Source: Pseudothauera nasutitermitis (GTDB taxonomy: Bacteria > Pseudomonadota > Gammaproteobacteria > Burkholderiales > Rhodocyclaceae). Taken from it: DNA of 64,000 nucleotides. Location: positions 496,001 through 560,000 of the forward strand of contig NZ_SSOC01000003.1 in the NCBI RefSeq assembly GCF_004801295.1. Direction: 5' to 3'. The notes under the pieces are model-generated. The model did no database searches, was not told the DNA's origin, and was given only the letters and a program-made list of their open reading frames with translations. This document shows, one piece after another, positions 445 through 52,184 of the stretch. A program made the position numbers and the translations under genes. How positions within the stretch are numbered: the first letter of the stretch is position 1; every line of letters starts with the position of its first letter.

Positions 445-1479
445 TCAGGTTTCGTCGGATTCGCCGGAACCCACCGCCGCGCGCCCGAGGCGGTCGGCGA
501 TGGCCGACCAGGCGGGTACGGCGGGCGGCGCTTCGACCAGCAGGCAGTCGGCACCCAGCGCATCGAGGGCGCGCAGGTGGGCGTACAGATCGTGGGCGTA
601 GCGCCCGGGGTCGGGGCCGGCCGCCACCCACTGCAATCGGTCGTCACCCGGATACGGGCAGGCATGGGCGAGCACGGCCACGTGCCGTCCCTGCGCGGCC
701 AGGCGCACGGCCTCGGCGGCCAGCTCCGAGCCCGGCAGCAGGCGCAAGGCCGTGGCCGGCGCGTAGTGCGCGGCCAGCGCACCGGAGACGCGCGGGGCGT
801 GCTGTTCCGGTTGCGCGGCGCTTTCTCCGCGCACGCGGGGGCGGCGGCCGATGACGCGGGCGATGCCCTCGGCGGTGATCGCGCCGGGGCGCAGGATTTC
901 CGGTTCGTCGCGCGACAGGTCGAGGATGGTGGATTCGATGCCCACCTGGCACGGCCCGCCGTCGAGGATCAGGTCCACCCGCGCCCCCAGTTCCTGTTCC
1001 ACGTGCGCGGCGGTGGTGGGGCTGATGCGCCCGAAGCGGTTGGCGCTGGGCGCGGCGATGCCGGAATCGAAGGCCTGGAGCAGGGCCAGCGCCACCGGAT
1101 GCGCGGGCACGCGCAGGCCCACGGTGTCCTGCCCGCCGGTGACCACGTCGGGCACGTCGTCCTCGCGCGGCAGGATCAAGGTGAGCGGGCCGGGCCAGAA
1201 GGCGCGGACGAGCGCGAGCGCTTCCTTGGGAATGCGGCGTGCCCAGCGCGACAGGTGTTCGGCCGAGGGCAGATGGACGATCAGCGGATGATCCGCCGGG
1301 CGCCCCTTGGCGTGGAAGATGCCCGTGGCGGCCGCCGCATCGAGCGCGTCGGCGCCCAGGCCATACACGGTTTCGGTGGGCAAGGCGACGAGTTTGCCAG
1401 CGCGCAGCAGCGCGGCCGCGCGGGCGATGTTCTCGGGCGTGGGCGCGACGATGCGGGCAGGCTGCGCGGCGCCGCTCAC
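445..1479 (-). CDS. tsaC: L-threonylcarbamoyladenylate synthase (Sua5 long form)
   Basis: This enzyme makes threonylcarbamoyl-AMP from threonine, bicarbonate and ATP for the t6A37 modification of ANN-decoding tRNAs. The 344 residues comprise an N-terminal YrdC domain and the C-terminal Sua5 extension that E. coli TsaC lacks. The YrdC domain contains LVALPTETVYGLGADA, the KGRP motif and SANRFGRISPT. The open frame runs further upstream, but a GTG at 1479 preceded by AGGAGG at good spacing is the clear start, and the residues before it read like out-of-frame purK. It is the last gene of the minus-strand folD-purE-purK run, 79 bp after purK. Confidence 0.92.
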   Translation of the reverse strand: MSGAAQPARIVAPTPENIARAAALLRAGKLVALPTETVYGLGADALDAAAATGIFHAKGRPADHPLIVHLPSAEHLSRWARRIPKEALALVRAFWPGPLTLILPREDDVPDVVTGGQDTVGLRVPAHPVALALLQAFDSGIAAPSANRFGRISPTTAAHVEQELGARVDLILDGGPCQVGIESTILDLSRDEPEILRPGAITAEGIARVIGRRPRVRGESAAQPEQHAPRVSGALAAHYAPATALRLLPGSELAAEAVRLAAQGRHVAVLAHACPYPGDDRLQWVAAGPDPGRYAHDLYAHLRALDALGADCLLVEAPPAVPAWSAIADRLGRAAVGSGESDET

Positions 1480-1558
1480 TGGACGACCCTCCTGTCGCTG
1501 CGCGACATCCTCCCCGGGGGAGGACGAGCGCCTCCTTCGGGCGGCCGGGCGGAGGCGC

Positions 1559-36127: not shown

Positions 36128-37519
36128 TCAGATCACCTTGGAGTAGCGCTTGCGCTCGCGGTCGGCACGCAGGAAGCGGTCGAACACCATGGCGATGCCG
36201 CGCACCAGCATGCGTCCCGGCGGCAGCACGGTGATCCACTCGTCGTCGACCTTGAGCAGGCCGGCCTTTTCCATTTCGCGCAGATCGGCGAGCTCTTCCG
36301 CGAAGTATTCACGGAAGTTGATCAGATGGGCGATCTGGATGGACTCGATGGACAGCTCGAAGTGGCACATCAGCGCCTGGATGATCGAGCGGCGCAGCAG
36401 GTCGTCGGCGGTCAACTCGATGCCGCGCAGCACCGGCAGCTCGTCCTGGTCGAGGATGTCGTAGTACTCGTCCAGCGTCTTGACGTTCTGCGCGTAGGTC
36501 GGCCCCACCTTGCTGATCGCCGACACGCCGAAGGCCAGCAGGTCGCACTCGGCGTGGGTGGAGTAGCCCTGGAAGTTGCGGTGCAGGCGGCCCTGGCGCT
36601 GGGCGATGGTGAGTTCGTCGTCCGGCTTGGCGAAGTGGTCCATGCCGATGTACACATAGCCCGCCTCGGTGAGCCGGCGGATGGCCAGTTGCAGGATCTG
36701 CAGCTTGGTGTCGGCGGTGGGCATGTCCACCGAGTTGATGCGGCGCTGCGGCTTGAACAGCTGCGGCAGGTGCGCGTAACTGTACAGCGAGACGCGGTCC
36801 GGAGAAATCTGCAGCACCTGCTCCAGCGTGCGGTTGAAGCTGATGATGTTCTGCTTGGGCAGGCCGTAGATCAGGTCCATCGACACGGACTTGAAGCCGG
36901 TAGCGCGCGCGGCGTCCACCACCAGCTTGGTCTCCTCGAAGCTCTGCACGCGGTTGACCGCCACCTGCACGTCGTGGGCGAAGTCCTGCACACCCACGCT
37001 CATGCGATTGAAGCCGAGGTTGGAGAGCAGTTCGACGGTGTCGAAATCGACCTTGCGCGGATCGACTTCGATGGAATACTCGCCATTGGGCACCAGGGTG
37101 AAGTGCTCGCGCACCGAATCCATCAGCTGATGCATTTCCTCGTGGGACAGGAAGGTCGGCGTGCCACCGCCCAGATGCAACTGGGTGACCTGCCGGCTTC
37201 CGCCCAGACAGGAGGCCTGCATCTCGATTTCCTTGGCCAGGTATTTCAGGTACTTGGCCGAGCGCCCGTGATCCTTGGTGATGATCTTGTTGCAGGCGCA
37301 GTAGTAACAGATCGTGTTACAAAAAGGGATGTGGAAGTATAATGACAGCGGTCGGCCCAGTCCGCCCACGGCGCGCTTCGCGAGCCAGTCGCGCAGCGAT
37401 TTGGCGTTGAAGGCCTCGATGAAACGGTCCGCTGTCGGATAGGACGTGTAGCGCGGTCCGTTGATGTCGAAGCGGCGGATCAGTTGGGGGTCGAAGACGA
37501 GTTCTTTCTGGTTGCTCAT
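36128..37519 (-). CDS. hemN: Oxygen-independent coproporphyrinogen III oxidase
   Basis: HemN is a radical-SAM enzyme that decarboxylates coproporphyrinogen III without oxygen. The 463 residues contain YTSYPTADRF, the cluster motif CNTICYYCACN near residue 67, and LHLGGGTPTFLS. The length is that of true HemN rather than HemW. An FNR box lies between hemN and the divergent fnr, with a plausible -10 (GATCTT) at class II spacing towards hemN. Anaerobic induction is therefore expected. Confidence 0.96.
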   Translation of the reverse strand: MSNQKELVFDPQLIRRFDINGPRYTSYPTADRFIEAFNAKSLRDWLAKRAVGGLGRPLSLYFHIPFCNTICYYCACNKIITKDHGRSAKYLKYLAKEIEMQASCLGGSRQVTQLHLGGGTPTFLSHEEMHQLMDSVREHFTLVPNGEYSIEVDPRKVDFDTVELLSNLGFNRMSVGVQDFAHDVQVAVNRVQSFEETKLVVDAARATGFKSVSMDLIYGLPKQNIISFNRTLEQVLQISPDRVSLYSYAHLPQLFKPQRRINSVDMPTADTKLQILQLAIRRLTEAGYVYIGMDHFAKPDDELTIAQRQGRLHRNFQGYSTHAECDLLAFGVSAISKVGPTYAQNVKTLDEYYDILDQDELPVLRGIELTADDLLRRSIIQALMCHFELSIESIQIAHLINFREYFAEELADLREMEKAGLLKVDDEWITVLPPGRMLVRGIAMVFDRFLRADRERKRYSKVI

Positions 37520-37573: not shown

Positions 37574-37587
37574 TTGACGTGGATCAA
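37574..37587. promoter_or_regulatory. FNR box in the hemN-fnr intergenic region
   Basis: TTGACGTGGATCAA matches the TTGAT-N4-ATCAA consensus at nine of ten fixed positions. It could activate hemN and also affect fnr itself. Confidence 0.8.
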
Positions 37588-37628: not shown

Positions 37629-38372
37629 GTGCAAATGAAGGCGACAGTGCCGGTCTCGATGGCCAGTCTGAAGGCCGCCTGTTCGCAGTGTAACCTCCAG
37701 GAGCTGTGCCTGCCGTTCGGGATGTCGGAGAACGAGATCGACCGCCTGGACGAACTGGTGGGCGCCCGCCGCAAGATCAAGCGCCAGCACCACCTGTACC
37801 GCGCGGGAGACCTGTTCGAGGCCATCTACGCGATCCGCGCCGGCTCGTTCAAGACCGATGTGCTGCTGGAGGACGGGCGCGAGCAGGTCACCGGCTTCCA
37901 GATGACCGGCGAGATCATCGGCCTGGACGGCATCAGCACCGAGTTCCACACCTGTAACGCGATCGCGCTGGAGGACAGCGAGGTGTGCGTGATCCCCTAC
38001 GCCAAGCTGGAAGAGCTCTCGCGCGAGGTGGAGGGCCTGCAGCACCAGTTCCACAAGGTGATGAGCCGCGAGATCGTGCGCGACCACGGCGTGATGATGC
38101 TGCTCGGCTCGATGCGCGCGGAAGAACGCCTGGCGGCCTTCCTGCTCAACATGTCGCAGCGTTTCACCGCGCGCGGCTTCTCCGCCGCCGAATTCCACCT
38201 GCGCATGACCCGCGAGGAGATCGGCTCCTACCTCGGACTCAAGCTGGAAACCGTTTCACGCGCGTTCTCGCGCTTCCAGGAAGACGGGCTGGTGGCCGTG
38301 CAGCAGAAGCACATCCGCATCCTCAGCATTCCCGGGCTGAAGAAGCTGCTGCACCATCAGCCGGCCGGCTGA
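37629..38372 (+). CDS. fnr: FNR oxygen-sensing transcriptional regulator
   Basis: FNR is active as a [4Fe-4S] dimer without oxygen. The 247-residue protein has the three N-terminal Cys 18, 21 and 27 (CSQCNLQELCLPF) and the fourth ligand Cys109, in the E. coli arrangement. A CRP-like core and the recognition helix LKLETVSRAFSRF follow. A GTG at 37629 has GGAGC at good spacing; the ATG at 37635 is an alternative. The 3' end overlaps the convergent hemerythrin gene by 16 bp. FNR boxes at 37574, 51714 and 51931 are its likely local targets. Confidence 0.95.
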   Translation: MQMKATVPVSMASLKAACSQCNLQELCLPFGMSENEIDRLDELVGARRKIKRQHHLYRAGDLFEAIYAIRAGSFKTDVLLEDGREQVTGFQMTGEIIGLDGISTEFHTCNAIALEDSEVCVIPYAKLEELSREVEGLQHQFHKVMSREIVRDHGVMMLLGSMRAEERLAAFLLNMSQRFTARGFSAAEFHLRMTREEIGSYLGLKLETVSRAFSRFQEDGLVAVQQKHIRILSIPGLKKLLHHQPAG

Positions 38373-40593: not shown

Positions 40594-41280
40594 ATGCCCG
40601 ATCCGAACATGAGCATCCCCCAACTGCTGCGTCAGATGCCGCTGTTCAGCGAACTGTCCGACGACGACATCGAACGCGTCGCGCACTACACCCGCGACCG
40701 CCATCTGGCCAAGGGCGAGATGCTGTTCCAGCGCGGCGATCCGGCACACGGCTTCTACTTCGTCGTGGACGGCCAGATCAAGCTGGCGTTCTCGTCCGCC
40801 CAGGGCAACGAGAAGGTGGTCGAGGTGATCGGCCCGCGGCAGAGCTTCGGCGAGGCGGTGATGTTCATGGACCGCCCCTACCCGGTGTTCGCCGAGGCGC
40901 TGGTCGATACCTCGCTGCTGCACGTCGGCCAGCGCGTGGTCTCCGACCTGCTCGACCAGGACGCCGCGTTCGCCCGCAAGCTGCTCGCCGGCATGGCGAT
41001 CCGCCTGCACGGCATGGTGCGCGACGTGGAAACCTATTCGCTGCGCTCCAGCACCCAGCGGGTGATCGGCTACCTGCTCCAGCAGTCCGACGAGACCGCC
41101 GGCAGCGGCACCGAATTCGACCTGGCGATCAGCAAGCAGGTCATCGCCTCGCGCCTGAACCTCACCCCGGAAACGCTTTCGCGCATCTTCCACGACCTGT
41201 CCAGCGCCGGGCTGATCAGCGTGCGCGGCAAGCACATCACCCTGCACGACCCCGCCCGCCTGGCGCGCCACCAAGGCTGA
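40594..41280 (+). CDS. dnr: Dnr/NnrR-type Crp/Fnr regulator
   Basis: The 228-residue protein lacks the FNR Cys cluster, has a CRP-type sensor domain (about 15-135) and a winged helix with SKQVIASRLNLTPETLSRIF. Such proteins sense NO through heme and activate denitrification genes. The divergent nnrS and the hemerythrin gene support this, although no denitrification reductase lies in the window. AGGAG precedes the ATG, and a TAGAAT -10 is at 40564-40569. Confidence 0.87.
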   Translation: MPDPNMSIPQLLRQMPLFSELSDDDIERVAHYTRDRHLAKGEMLFQRGDPAHGFYFVVDGQIKLAFSSAQGNEKVVEVIGPRQSFGEAVMFMDRPYPVFAEALVDTSLLHVGQRVVSDLLDQDAAFARKLLAGMAIRLHGMVRDVETYSLRSSTQRVIGYLLQQSDETAGSGTEFDLAISKQVIASRLNLTPETLSRIFHDLSSAGLISVRGKHITLHDPARLARHQG

Positions 41281-41323: not shown

Positions 41324-41360
41324 GCCGGCCTTGATTCGGCTCAAGCGGCCCAGGGCGTGT

Positions 41361-43094
41361 TCAGTGCTCCACCACGTAGCGCCCGGGCGCCGCGCCCAGG
41401 CTGGGGAAGGACTTGGTGGCCGCCGGACGTGCCTCGACCAGTTCACCGCAGCGCGGCTTCAGCCAGGCCATCCAGTCTTCCCACCAGCTTCCCGGGCGCG
41501 CCTCGGCGCGCTCGCGCCAGGCTTCGGCGGTTTCGTTGCCCGGCGTGTCGGCCACCCAGAATCTGCGCTTGGGCGGATTGACCGGCGGGTTGACGATGCC
41601 CAGGATGTGCCCGGAACTGGACAGCACGTAGCGCTTGGGCCCGGCGACGTGGCGGGTGACCAGGTGGGTCTGCTGCCACGGCGCGATGTGGTCGTCCTCG
41701 GCGGACACGGCGTACAGCGGCTGCACGATGCGCCCGAGGTCGAGCGGCTGGCCGGCCACGGTCAGCGCGTCCTTGTGCACCAGGTGGTTGTTCAGGTACA
41801 GCTCGCGCAGGTACCAGGCGTGCATGCGGTAGGGCATGCGCGTGGTGTCCATGTTCCAGTACAGCACGTCGAACGGCGGCGGCTTCTCGCCGTACAGCCA
41901 GCCGTACACTACGTAGTGCCAGATCAGGCTGTTGGAGCGCAGCAGGCGGAACGAGGCGGCCATGTCCTTGCCGTCCAGGAAGCCGGTACGCGCCATCTTG
42001 TCGGTGAGGTAGCGGATGCTGGCTTCATCGACGAACACCTCGATGTCGCCCGGCTTGTGGAAATCCACCAGGGTGGTGAACAAGGTCCAGTCCGCCACCG
42101 GCATCTCTTCCGGCCTGAAGCGCCGGTTGGCCCAGGCCATGTACATCGCCAGCGCGGTGCCGCCGATGCAGTAGCCTGCCGCATGCACGCGCGCCGCGCC
42201 GGTGAACTTGCGCGCAGTGTCGATGATGGCGTGCACGCCATCGACCAGATAATCGTCGAAGCCCACGTCGCGCATCGAGGCATCGGGGTTCTTCCAACTG
42301 GTGATGAACACGTCCAGCCCCTGGTCGAGCAGGTAGCGGATCATGCTTTTCCTCGGCACCAGATCGAGGATGTAGAACTTGTTGATCCACGGCGTGACGA
42401 TGACCACCGGCTCGGCATGCACGCGCGCCTGCGTGGGCGCGTAGTGGATGACCTCCAGCAAGCGGTTGCGGAACACCACCTCGCCCGGCGTGGTGGCGAG
42501 GTTCTCGCCGACCTTGAAATCCTCCGGCGAGGTCATGCGCACATTGCCGGCCTTCATGTCCTCGAGGAAATTGCGCAAGCCCTTCACCAGGCTTTCGCCC
42601 CCGCTTTCGGCGGCCTTGCGCATGGCCACCGGGTTGGTCCAGAAGAAATTGGTGGGCGCCACCATGTTGAGCCACTTGCGCCACCAGAAGGCCGCGCGCC
42701 GACGCTCCTTGTCGGACAGCCCCGGGGTGTCGTAGAGCATGTCCTGCAGGTGGTGGGTGAAGGCCAGGTACCACTCCTTGACCAGATCCCAGCTGGGCGA
42801 ATCCGTCCATACCGGGTCGGCAAAGCGCGTGTCGTCGGCATGCGGGGTCACCGGGTCCTCGCTCGGCAGGCCCAGCGCCCGCCGCCAGGTGTGCGCCTGC
42901 AGGCGCCACAGGTCGGCGGACAGGCTGGCCATGCGCACGGACAGTTCCTGCGGGTGCGCCAGCCAGGCAAGCTTGGCGTGCACGATGGGGGCGGTCATGC
43001 CCAGCGGATCGATACCACCTTCGACCGTATCGTGAATCTCGCGCAAGGCCTTGCGGATGGTTTCGGGCGGGGTCGGACTCGTGGAATGCTTCAT
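41361..43094 (-). CDS. phaC: Class I poly(3-hydroxyalkanoate) synthase
   Basis: PhaC polymerises 3-hydroxybutyryl-CoA. The 577-residue enzyme has the N-terminal PHB-synthase domain (SPSWDLVKEWYLAFTHHLQD, NFFWTNPVAM). Its alpha/beta-hydrolase core has the lipase-like box GYCIGGT (catalytic Cys near 308), Asp in SAEDDHIAPW and His in SSGHILGIVNPP. The ATG at 43094 follows AGGAGG; the longer open frame is not used. No phaA, phaB or phaR is adjacent; the phasin is at 15577. Confidence 0.95.
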   Translation of the reverse strand: MKHSTSPTPPETIRKALREIHDTVEGGIDPLGMTAPIVHAKLAWLAHPQELSVRMASLSADLWRLQAHTWRRALGLPSEDPVTPHADDTRFADPVWTDSPSWDLVKEWYLAFTHHLQDMLYDTPGLSDKERRRAAFWWRKWLNMVAPTNFFWTNPVAMRKAAESGGESLVKGLRNFLEDMKAGNVRMTSPEDFKVGENLATTPGEVVFRNRLLEVIHYAPTQARVHAEPVVIVTPWINKFYILDLVPRKSMIRYLLDQGLDVFITSWKNPDASMRDVGFDDYLVDGVHAIIDTARKFTGAARVHAAGYCIGGTALAMYMAWANRRFRPEEMPVADWTLFTTLVDFHKPGDIEVFVDEASIRYLTDKMARTGFLDGKDMAASFRLLRSNSLIWHYVVYGWLYGEKPPPFDVLYWNMDTTRMPYRMHAWYLRELYLNNHLVHKDALTVAGQPLDLGRIVQPLYAVSAEDDHIAPWQQTHLVTRHVAGPKRYVLSSSGHILGIVNPPVNPPKRRFWVADTPGNETAEAWRERAEARPGSWWEDWMAWLKPRCGELVEARPAATKSFPSLGAAPGRYVVEH

Positions 43095-43182
43095 CGGCTC
43101 ACCTCCTTGCGGACCAGGGACGGCGCTCGGGCCATCCGGCCGATCATGCGCTACGCACGAGGGGGATGGCAATCGGCGCATG

Positions 43183-44592
43183 TCACGGTAATTCGTAGAT
43201 TTCTCCGGCCACCGGCACTTCGACCCCGTTCCAGCCGAGCGTCCCGCCGATGGCGCCGGCCAGGGCCTCGGCGACGCTCTGTTCGCCATGCACGACGAAA
43301 GTGCGGCGCGGCGGCGGGCCGAAGTTGCGCAGCCAGTCGAGCAGCGCGGGCTGGTCGGCATGCGCCGACAGGCCGCCGATGGTGTAGATGTCCGCACGCA
43401 CCGGAAAACGCTCGCCGAACAGGGTCACCTGCCGCGCGCCATCGACCAGCCGGCGGCCGAGCGAACCGCCGGCCTGGAAGCCGGCGATGACCACCGAACA
43501 TTCCGGGCGCGGCAGGTTGTTGCGCAGGTGGTACTTGATGCGCCCGGCGTCGCACATGCCGCTGGCGGACAGGATCACCAGCCCGCCGCGCCGCTCGTTG
43601 AGGGCGATGGATTCCTCCACGTCCTGCACGAAACGCACGTTGATCCGGCCGGGGTGCTGGCGCGCCCAGGCCATCAGTTCGCCCGTCTCGCGATCCCACA
43701 GTTCATCGTGGCGCATGGTCAGTGCAGTGGCGGCGGAAGCCATCGGCGAATCAACGACGATCTCCAGCGGCCCCACCCTGCCCTGCCGCACCAGGTTGGC
43801 GAGCACGAAGATGACTTCCTGCGTGCGCCCCACGGCAAAGGCCGGAATGATCACATTGCCGCCCTTGTCGCGCAGCGTGCGGTTGAGGGCGCGGCACAAT
43901 TCGTTCTCGGTTTCGGCCATCGAGCGGTGCGCCCGATTGCCGTAGGTCGACTCCACGCACAGGTAATCCGCCTGGTGGAGCACCGCCGGATCGCGCACCA
44001 CGGGGCGCATCGGCTGCCCGAGGTCGCCGGAGAACACCAGGGTGCGCGGCCGGCCGCCGGTGCGCAACTCCAGTTCGATGATCGCCGAGCCGAGGATGTG
44101 CCCGGCCTCGTGGAACGTGCAGCGCACGCCGGGCGCGGGCTCGAAGGTCTTGCCGTAGGGCTGCGGGCGCAGCCGCTTCAGGCTGTCGAGCGCCTGGGCC
44201 ACGGTATACAGCGGCGCGGCATCCCAGCCCCTGCGCAGGTGGCGGGCACGCTCGTGGCGGTTGGCCCATTCGGCTTCCTTCTCCTGGATATGCGCCGAAT
44301 CCAGCAGCATGATTTCCAGCAGATCCACCGTGGCCTCGGTGGCATGCACCGGCCCGCGATAACCCAGCGCCACCAGGCGCGGCAGCAGGCCGGCGTGGTC
44401 GAGGTGGGCATGGGTGAGCAGCACGAAATCCAGCTCGCGCAGGTTGAAATCGAGCGCGTGCAGATTCTTGCGCGCCGCGCTGCGTCCGCCCTGGAACAAG
44501 CCACAGTCGATCAACCCGACGCCACCGTCGTACCACAGCTGGGCGCAGGAACCGGTCACCTCGCCCGCCGCCCCATGGAAGCTCAATCTCAT
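43183..44592 (-). CDS. MBL-fold/beta-CASP RNA-processing exonuclease family protein
   Basis: The 469-residue protein is a metallo-beta-lactamase with beta-CASP and RMMBL domains, the CPSF73-like bacterial group. The metal site HAHLDH is at 61-66, with the later GHILGSA, FSGDLG and SAHAD motifs. Known relatives are RNA nucleases. The ATG at 44592 follows GAGAGG. It lies 88 bp upstream of phaC on the same strand and diverges from the universal stress gene. In Rhodocyclales and Burkholderiales such genes often accompany phaC and usp; the reason is unknown. Confidence 0.9.
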   Translation of the reverse strand: MRLSFHGAAGEVTGSCAQLWYDGGVGLIDCGLFQGGRSAARKNLHALDFNLRELDFVLLTHAHLDHAGLLPRLVALGYRGPVHATEATVDLLEIMLLDSAHIQEKEAEWANRHERARHLRRGWDAAPLYTVAQALDSLKRLRPQPYGKTFEPAPGVRCTFHEAGHILGSAIIELELRTGGRPRTLVFSGDLGQPMRPVVRDPAVLHQADYLCVESTYGNRAHRSMAETENELCRALNRTLRDKGGNVIIPAFAVGRTQEVIFVLANLVRQGRVGPLEIVVDSPMASAATALTMRHDELWDRETGELMAWARQHPGRINVRFVQDVEESIALNERRGGLVILSASGMCDAGRIKYHLRNNLPRPECSVVIAGFQAGGSLGRRLVDGARQVTLFGERFPVRADIYTIGGLSAHADQPALLDWLRNFGPPPRRTFVVHGEQSVAEALAGAIGGTLGWNGVEVPVAGEIYELP

Positions 44593-50185: not shown

Positions 50186-51610
<1,425 letters not shown>

Positions 51611-51686: not shown

Positions 51687-51727
51687 AGGATACGCCGCGA
51701 ACGGAACCTGAACTTGATGCAGATCAA
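51687..51727 (-). promoter_or_regulatory. FNR-dependent promoter of ccoNOQP
   Basis: TTGATGCAGATCAA (51714-51727) is a perfect FNR box. Read on the minus strand, TATCCT (51687-51692) lies 21 bp after it, the spacing of class II FNR promoters with the box centred near -41.5. The start point would be near 51680, 70 bp before ccoN. Confidence 0.85.
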
Positions 51728-51794
51728 CATTGTATTGCACCACGATGGGTCATGAAAGCGCGCTCACTTGCGCGAGCCGGCGGGGCCGTGGACG

Positions 51795-51823
51795 AAAAAA
51801 AAGGGTGCGTGTCAAACGCACCC
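51795..51823 (-). terminator. Strong terminator downstream of ccoS
   Basis: An 8-bp perfect stem (51803-51810 with 51816-51823) is followed by eight T on the minus strand. It ends the ccoI-ccoS transcript 158 bp after the ccoS stop, and also the candidate small RNA. Confidence 0.9.
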
Positions 51824-51896
51824 CCAACCCCAACAGAGAGACAAAAATCCGGTAAAACAGACCCGCCGCCCGAGGGCCGCGTGCCGTGAATAACCA
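51795..51896 (-). ncRNA. Candidate FNR-controlled small RNA in the ccoS 3' region
   Basis: The 370-bp gap between ccoS and ccoN holds no protein gene. An FNR box (51931-51944) points, at class II spacing, to a start near 51896 on the minus strand. The strong terminator at 51795-51823 would end a transcript of about 100 nt with a U8 tail. The -10 at that spacing (CACACT, 51904-51909) is weak. No family was recognised. Confidence 0.3.
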
Positions 51897-51930
51897 TGCG
51901 CCCAGTGTGCCTTAATCCTCGCCCCCCGCG

Positions 51931-51944
51931 TTGACCTAGATCAA
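51931..51944. promoter_or_regulatory. Second FNR box in the cco locus
   Basis: TTGACCTAGATCAA matches the FNR consensus at nine of ten fixed positions. It lies downstream of the ccoS stop and 321 bp upstream of ccoN, on the ccoS side of a strong terminator. It is too far to be the class II site for ccoN. Confidence 0.75.
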
Positions 51945-51980
51945 ATGCGCGGAGGTTCCCACCTTTGCGGCGGATTTCGT

Positions 51981-52184
51981 CTATTTGTCTTTCGGCGGAT
52001 CCTCCGGATTTCCGTCGTCCTGCGGAGGCGGATCGCGATCGTCCATCAGCAGCCGGTACGCAGGCCCCTCCATATCGTCGAACTGCCCGGAACGCACCGA
52101 CCACCAGAAAATCAGGCCGATGACGAACACCAGCAGCACCGACAGCGGGATCAGGATATAGAGACTGCCGATCAAGCCTTCCAT
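51981..52184 (-). CDS. ccoS: cbb3 oxidase maturation protein CcoS
   Basis: CcoS is needed to insert heme b and copper into CcoN. The 67-residue protein has one membrane helix (about 7-28) followed by WWSVRSGQFDDMEGPAYRLL, the family signature, and a Pro/Asp-rich tail. It follows ccoI by 9 bp. Confidence 0.93.
   Translation of the reverse strand: MEGLIGSLYILIPLSVLLVFVIGLIFWWSVRSGQFDDMEGPAYRLLMDDRDPPPQDDGNPEDPPKDK

Follow-up and report, generated by a model that had tools for sequence, protein, structure and literature searches.

The gap between ccoS and ccoN in Pseudothauera nasutitermitis contains two FNR boxes, the first of which is followed by a terminator and by no gene. What might be transcribed from this box is the question raised by the locus. 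A preliminary description of the window, i.e., of the whole stretch of 64,000 nucleotides that was analyzed, had proposed a small RNA under the control of FNR. Comparison of genomes upheld this proposal: the box, the -10 element and the terminator are kept as a set, together with a conserved stretch, in the absence of a kept reading frame and with a separate promoter for ccoN.

Anatomy of the ccoS-ccoN gap

The genes of the minus strand are ordered ccoI, ccoS, the 370-bp gap and ccoN; ccoI is named by its position, the profile result being a heavy-metal P-type ATPase only. Read from 5' to 3', the gap contains an FNR box, a -10 element, a predicted start, a variable part, the stretch GUCUCUCUGUUGGGGUU, a terminator and the second FNR box (Table 1). 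The coordinates of the preliminary description hold for both boxes and for the U8-tailed terminator, which is listed by the scan and separates the upstream box from ccoN. The proposed start (~51896) and length (~100 nt) agree with the values deduced from the position of the -10 element (start, ~51897). This element had been described as weak, which it is, yet it is located at a conserved place.

Table 1. Positions in the window of the features of the putative small RNA gene, of its neighbors and of its presumed activator
Feature	Position	Strand	Basis
FNR box of the small RNA, TTGATCTAGGTCAA	51931..51944	-	Exact TTGAN6TCAA at the equivalent place in relatives
-10 element CACACT, weak (3/6 vs TATAAT)	51904..51909	-	Class II spacing to the box
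Predicted RNA of 102-103 nt, comprising a variable 5' region, the conserved core and the intrinsic terminator	51795..51897	-	Start predicted from the -10 element
Conserved stretch GUCUCUCUGUUGGGGUU, directly 5' of the terminator, likely seed	51826..51842	-	Alignment invariance and predicted pairing
Intrinsic terminator with U8 tail	51795..51823	-	Terminator scan; covarying stem
Second FNR box, TTGATGCAGATCAA, assigned to ccoN	51714..51727	-	Perfect match to TTGATNNNNATCAA
ccoS, upstream neighbor	51981..52184	-	TIGR00847 above cut-off
ccoN, downstream neighbor	50186..51610	-	TIGR00780 above cut-off
fnr, presumed activator	37629..38372	+	NF008365 Fnr, 252.6 bits (cut-off, 228)

The terminator consists of the stem-loop GGGTGCG-TTTGACA-CGCACCC (51823-51803) followed by T8 (51802-51795). 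Four terminator-like sites were found between positions 50500 and 53000, in comparison to a mean of 1.5 (standard deviation, 1.1) in shuffled sequences, and only this one has an unbroken U-run. The folding energy of segment 51793-51896 was -39.4 kcal/mol (z = -2.97), a value as low being obtained with 1 of 200 shuffles, and GUCUCUCUGUUGGGGUU was predicted to form, in part, a weak hairpin (UCUC-UGUU-GGGG). Searching the window for TTGATNNNNATCAA with up to two mismatches revealed 13 sites for 6.3 expected. Thus, the boxes alone are weak proof, and conservation carries the case.

Fnr itself is encoded in the window, beside hemN (36128-37519, minus strand). An FNR box with one mismatch to TTGATNNNNATCAA is located between these divergent genes (37574-37587), and Fnr may therefore control hemN and its own synthesis. 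A second regulator of the Crp/Fnr type (40594-41280, plus strand) is closest to FtrB, below the cut-off. The TTGAN6TCAA motif at 41331-41344 lies between the 3' ends of this gene and of a convergent PHA synthase-like gene (41361-43397, minus strand; just below the cut-off), an odd place for a promoter, and is perhaps due to chance.

Conservation of the unit in the Rhodocyclaceae

A plain-DNA match of the region was found in 27 of 61 genomes, comprising all six genomes of the genus (that of the window included), 21 of 31 genomes from other genera of the family and none of 24 genomes from other families of the order. The check for conservation in close relatives that had been suggested was run, and box, -10 element and terminator were all present in each of the six genus genomes. 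A covariance model of the 47-nt core (51842-51795), built from 27 sequences, matched 327 of the 395 genomes of the Rhodocyclaceae (GTDB family) at E ≤ 1e-3; 304 of these matches were below 1e-6, and the other 23 are weak (E > 1e-6) and thus not to be counted as members. The core occurs in about 54 of the 68 genera of the family (60 at E ≤ 1e-3). Judging from these matches, the putative gene of the cco-linked RNA is present in most of the Rhodocyclaceae genomes examined. Named genomes contained at least 119 stretches fitting the core pattern, the full core being found, among others, in records of Azoarcus, Aromatoleum, Parazoarcus, Thauera, Pseudothauera, Denitromonas, Zoogloea, Azonexus, Dechloromonas, Accumulibacter, Azospira, Sulfuritalea, Uliginosibacterium, Oryzomicrobium, Tepidiphilus and Hydrogenophilus. 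The core pattern had no match in viral contigs, and a 71-base query had none in plasmids.

Among 399 genomes of the order, 134 matched the model at E ≤ 1e-3. Outside the family, the only strong matches in the order were those of G565 (1.5e-19) and G584 (5.4e-19), located in each case next to ccoS and ccoN; contamination of these genomes amounts to 6% and 1%, respectively, and misbinned contigs are a possible source of the matches. The next-best genome, G461 (9.5e-11), did not contain the core. Seven weak matches in other families were inspected, and six of them (L073 to L076, L078 and L079) were rejected, as they resemble unrelated terminators. In a class-wide draw of 369 genomes, that of the window was the sole match at E ≤ 1e-8, with 0 of the 368 others, at least three of which belong to the same order.

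To define the neighborhood, 168 distinct cores were collected, of which 161 had a U-run (at least six U were required for counting). The other seven (L028, a second match in G034, L099, L101, L156, L159, L195 and L205) had neither a U-run nor a cco neighbor and were dropped as chance matches. All 161 cores with a U-run adjoin ccoS (up to 500 nt upstream), ccoN (up to 600 nt downstream) or both, on the same strand: 130 have both neighbors, 21 have ccoS only, and 10 have ccoN only, at least some of the one-sided neighborhoods resulting from the ends of contigs or loci. As the cores were selected by similarity to the window, best model score or exact pattern, the sample leans to close members, divergent members are underrepresented and the invariance of the seed is partly selected.

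Twenty of the 68 family genomes unmatched by the model were also inspected. Fifteen of these have ccoN, and no core was found within 600 nt upstream of ccoN in their 16 ccoN loci, the single poor match, in L434, having four edits and no U-run. In L426, L427 and L431, the ccoS match ends 124 to 163 nt before ccoN, and the gap contains one FNR box and no run of six or more T; by sequence, the unit is absent from these three loci and the ccoN promoter is retained. Other core-less loci are less clean, since 8 of the 16 have a T-run (six or more) somewhere in the 600 nt before ccoN and three (L430, L428 and L437) have two FNR boxes each. The gap of L430 (G084) lacks the core but contains a box resembling that of FNR and another terminator with a U-run, possibly reflecting an unrelated or much changed RNA.

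Conservation extends to the promoter. In 154 of the 161 distinct loci, an exact TTGAN6TCAA motif precedes the core by 60 to 150 nt, as opposed to 11 of 8,050 shuffles. Two of the seven remaining loci are cut by the locus end (L164 and L184), and five (L013, L027, L143, L171 and L186) have no box at that distance. In the 154 loci, the match to TATAAT peaked at an offset of 22 nt downstream of the box (2.87 of 6 positions; mean of 1.34 and standard deviation of 0.31 over 60 offsets), which is the spacing of class II FNR promoters. The next-best offset, 21 nt (2.19 of 6), is the register of the window, and relatives have CATACT, GATAAT or TATAAT at this place. The unit has the anatomy expected for an FNR-activated small RNA, with a box at the class II distance from the -10 element (only 3/6 in the window) and a terminator shortly downstream with no gene in between. 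The predicted RNA has a median length of 95 nt in the 154 loci (range, 64 to 147). A second exact FNR box was present between the terminator and ccoN in 130 of the 138 loci in which the start of ccoN is visible, the box at 51714-51727 having been assigned to ccoN before. The predicted small RNA is thus a separate unit, and ccoN need not depend on its promoter. FNR motifs upstream of the cbb3 operon of Accumulibacter have been described (PMC6446978), the main text of that article containing neither "small RNA" nor "noncoding."

Within the RNA, the seed region (alignment columns 4 to 17) was invariant in 27 of 27 sequences, all found by similarity to the window. The tail comprises 7 to 9 U in the 161 cores, for which at least six were required. 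In an alignment of 75 distinct sequences, obtained from 86 loci, fitted to the model and including two low-scoring extra matches, five of the eight pairs of the terminator stem had changes on both sides, and 98.5% of the cells were paired. The covariation score of this stem was reached by 0 of 500 shuffles, and sliding the partners destroyed the signal. In the 27-sequence alignment, which was not fitted to the model, three of nine pairs covaried, a number reached by 25 of 500 shuffles, and the score was again reached by 0 of 500. Most of the stem is replaced in Tepidiphilus (L115; GGGCACGC...GCGTGCCC). The 5' part of the RNA folds better than mononucleotide shuffles (median z, -2.13; below -1 in 114 of 154 loci). 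The UGUU and UU of the core were predicted to be mostly unpaired, UCUC and GGGG tending toward a weak hairpin. Hfq-type RNAs bear a long U tail, and the cco-linked RNA has such a tail after a stable stem.

Alternative readings, proposed mode of action and candidate targets

The terminator might act in cis, as an attenuator in a long ccoN leader, read-through under some signal then adding to ccoN expression. The position of the unit would suit this role, as it directly precedes ccoN on the same strand in 140 of 161 loci; cis action is nevertheless unlikely, given the separate FNR box of ccoN beyond the terminator and a stem that is kept by covariation and followed by a U-run in every core. The RNA might also arise chiefly by cleavage of the 3' end of the ccoIS messenger instead of, or in addition to, initiation at its own promoter. 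The end of ccoS is located only 36 bp before the box, the scan lists no minus-strand terminator between ccoS and 51823, and conservation is highest in the last 47 nt, a pattern also known from processed sRNAs. Conservation of a box and a -10 element at class II spacing in 154 of 161 loci would be unnecessary if the RNA were produced by processing alone, and we consider such an origin quite improbable. It is very unlikely that the site is a mere terminator of the ccoI-ccoS operon beside a chance FNR box. A terminator is expected at the end of an operon, and the window has twice the chance number of loose boxes, but a mere terminator would neither hold 14 letters 5' of its stem unchanged in all 27 sequences nor keep a box and a -10 element at fixed spacing, and the core-less loci in which ccoS is close to ccoN (L426, L427 and L431) do without a T-run in the gap.

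Finally, the transcript could be a leaderless mRNA encoding a very small protein, since the predicted start in the genus is at or next to an AUG. ATGGTT is present at about +1 in all six genus members, with a frame open into the core in four of them (one frame in L001, L002 and L003, another in L006), and gonococcal FnrS also begins with AUG according to passages of PMC3032703. However, the distance from the AUG to the core leaves remainders of 1, 1, 1, 2, 2 and 2 in the genus, indicating that the frame is not kept; stop codons interrupt L004 and L005, the frame is shifted across the family by single-base changes in the G-run, and a leaderless fusion in the gonococcus gave no activity (same passages of PMC3032703). 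The leaderless peptide was rejected on the basis of the frame, and the chance that it exists is slim indeed; the initial statement that no gene separates the box from the terminator holds.

Of all readings, an FNR-controlled small RNA fits the comparative data by far the best, and we have high confidence that the sequences compared reveal a real, conserved, FNR-linked small RNA gene. Positions 51897 to 51795 of the minus strand very probably form an FNR-activated gene for a predicted trans-acting small regulatory RNA, our confidence in the trans action as such being moderate. We infer from the features described above that the RNA is transcribed in dependence on Fnr and acts by pairing, with Hfq, and it is probably switched on at low oxygen. 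In the proposed mechanism, Fnr, active at low oxygen, would bind to 51944-51931, and transcription would start about 41.5 bp downstream of the box center, in class II fashion, and stop at the U8 terminator. The strongly conserved stretch UCUCUGUUGGGGUU, pyrimidine-rich at first and then G-rich, would most likely pair with ribosome-binding sites, its CUCUCU part facing purine-rich Shine-Dalgarno sequences and its UUGGGG part facing C-rich sequence just upstream. Pairing would lower the translation of proteins unwanted at low oxygen, and one Fnr signal would thereby turn on the cbb3 oxidase next door and turn down other genes via the small RNA.

The search for targets provided leads. The pattern CCCCAACAG...ATG was not enriched in bulk in 12 genomes (72 matches versus 61 for the reversed pattern), and one of the 72 matches is the antisense of the RNA gene itself. 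In 35 genomes, exact complements of the 14-nt seed were found in the RNA gene only, and sites with one mismatch were found elsewhere in 30 cases. Inspection of 50 loci revealed three plausible genes, namely, fur (G000 and G077), erpA (G077) and cydA (G031, with a 16-base complement). These names were verified with 90-residue pieces, ErpA scoring over the cut-off and Fur and CydA being best matches with partial-length scores below the full-length cut-offs. Start regions were then compared in 30 genomes, 24 of which contain the core and 6 of which lack it (in 72 sites for cydA); the start codons in the 30 genomes were chosen by rule, and the evidently wrong erpA start of G028 was left in. Predicted pairing with the erpA start region (z < -1.65) was found in 12 of 23 core-bearing genomes, the discovery genome being left out, versus 1 of 6 core-less genomes (one-sided p = 0.013, with no correction for three genes or for relatedness). 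A strong erpA site is also present in the core-less genome G074, and several core-bearing genomes (G008, G012, G025, G036 and G071) lack such a site. The values for fur were 4 of 21 versus 0 of 6 (p = 0.19), which does not set the two groups apart.

For cydA, the start regions of the four Pseudothauera genomes with a close cydA (of six in the genus) gave energies between -25.7 and -31.2 kcal/mol, values matched by no more than 1 of 200 or 2 of 300 shuffled seeds, and the letters of these sites differ with pairing kept. Elsewhere, cydA complementarity is patchy; across the family, it fails to distinguish genera with the core from those lacking it (p = 0.25 for genus medians, discovery genome included), and the core-less genome G258 has a strong site (-24.1). 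The genome of the window has no close cydA, only a distant relative. In a sample of 322 ORFs from this genome, with starts chosen by rule and some ORFs spurious, the energy of erpA (-21.6) was reached by 6 ORFs and that of fur (-19.3) by 23, fur included. The best energy (-27.1) was that of a phosphatase-like gene, which was set aside, as its neighborhood hints at nothing. The mean over the sample (-14.0) lies between the extremes obtained with ten shuffled seeds (-13.3 and -15.5), indicating that the seed is no general binder of ribosome sites. These analyses suggest erpA, cydA in Pseudothauera and, weakly, fur as leads, and our confidence in any single target is low.

It is a tentative and rather doubtful extension of the trans-acting reading that the small RNA forms the repressing arm of an oxidase switch, blocking the ribosome-binding sites of cydA (where present), erpA and fur. 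If so, Fnr would turn on cbb3 while the RNA blocks the rival quinol oxidase and genes for iron-sulfur and iron control, and scarce heme and iron would go to the high-affinity oxidase and to denitrification. The Rhodocyclaceae are a large family of water and soil bacteria, whose members carry out denitrification and remove phosphorus in wastewater. The cco-linked RNA would give this family (Thauera, Azoarcus, Aromatoleum, Dechloromonas, Zoogloea and Accumulibacter) a posttranscriptional response to oxygen and would represent a new sRNA family defined by its synteny with a respiratory operon. No earlier report of it was found among the titles and abstract openings covered from the literature on FNR/Anr and on sRNAs of the Rhodocyclaceae, mostly nonsubscription papers.

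Comparison with known small RNAs

The Rfam collection contains an FnrS family. At gathering cut-offs, Rfam models matched three tRNAs only in the whole window, and nothing credible was found in 51760-51990 down to E = 10, the nearest families being SorY and AniS; the E. coli type of FnrS was absent among the matches up to this value. SorY (RF02651) scored 20.8 bits for a gathering value of 111, and its short CUC-CUGUUGG alignment was treated as chance. The covariance model of AniS (RF02274) gave 19.3 bits versus a gathering value of 50 (E = 0.35), and by this test the RNA is not homologous to AniS.

RF02278, the Betaproteobacteria toxic sRNA (bdhR1, S17), likewise combines a short, strongly conserved stretch with a terminator, as described in parts of PMC11722255. 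It is nonetheless a separate gene: its copy in the genome of the window, over the cut-off, is located elsewhere (G000:C7:5526-5591) and has a different conserved stretch, CUCCUCCACCCUCCUCC, and its model had no match in 51760-51990 at E ≤ 10. This RF02278 gene is located about 2.2 kb from erpA (G000:C7:3068-3337), and coordinates reveal the same closeness in G001, G002, G003 and G005. In a genome from another family of the order (G432), the weak match L077 (~1370-1556, minus strand) comprises two units in tandem, each ended by a terminator and containing GTCTCCTCCCC(C)TGTT(T)GGGG, which recall both RF02278 and the cco-linked core and are perhaps sibling sRNAs.

E. coli FnrS is reportedly, from the work of Durand and Storz, a repressor of genes for life with oxygen. 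Its class II activation by FNR, centered at -41.5, is recounted in passages of PMC3032703, which also present the Neisseria counterpart (AniS or gonococcal FnrS) as an FNR-activated betaproteobacterial sRNA with a class II FNR site, a 5' stem-loop, an unstructured middle and a terminator. In the gonococcus, the gene is embedded in a coding region, on the opposite strand (PMC3032703, same passages), whereas that of the cco-linked RNA is at cco. AniS and FnrS are named as homologues in a portion of PMC4176332. SicX, an sRNA of Pseudomonas aeruginosa, is induced through Anr at low oxygen, but is restricted to that species and activates ubiUVT translation without a need for Hfq, according to sections of PMC10247376; the comparison with the cco-linked RNA was made by description only. 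The best reading is that the cco-linked RNA is analogous to FnrS and AniS. Its anatomy predicts activation by FNR or Anr, as for FnrS, AniS and SicX, and it belongs to none of the sequence families tested. Such activation would fit the idea that FNR-driven sRNAs arose several times, as FnrS, AniS, SicX and the cco-linked RNA.
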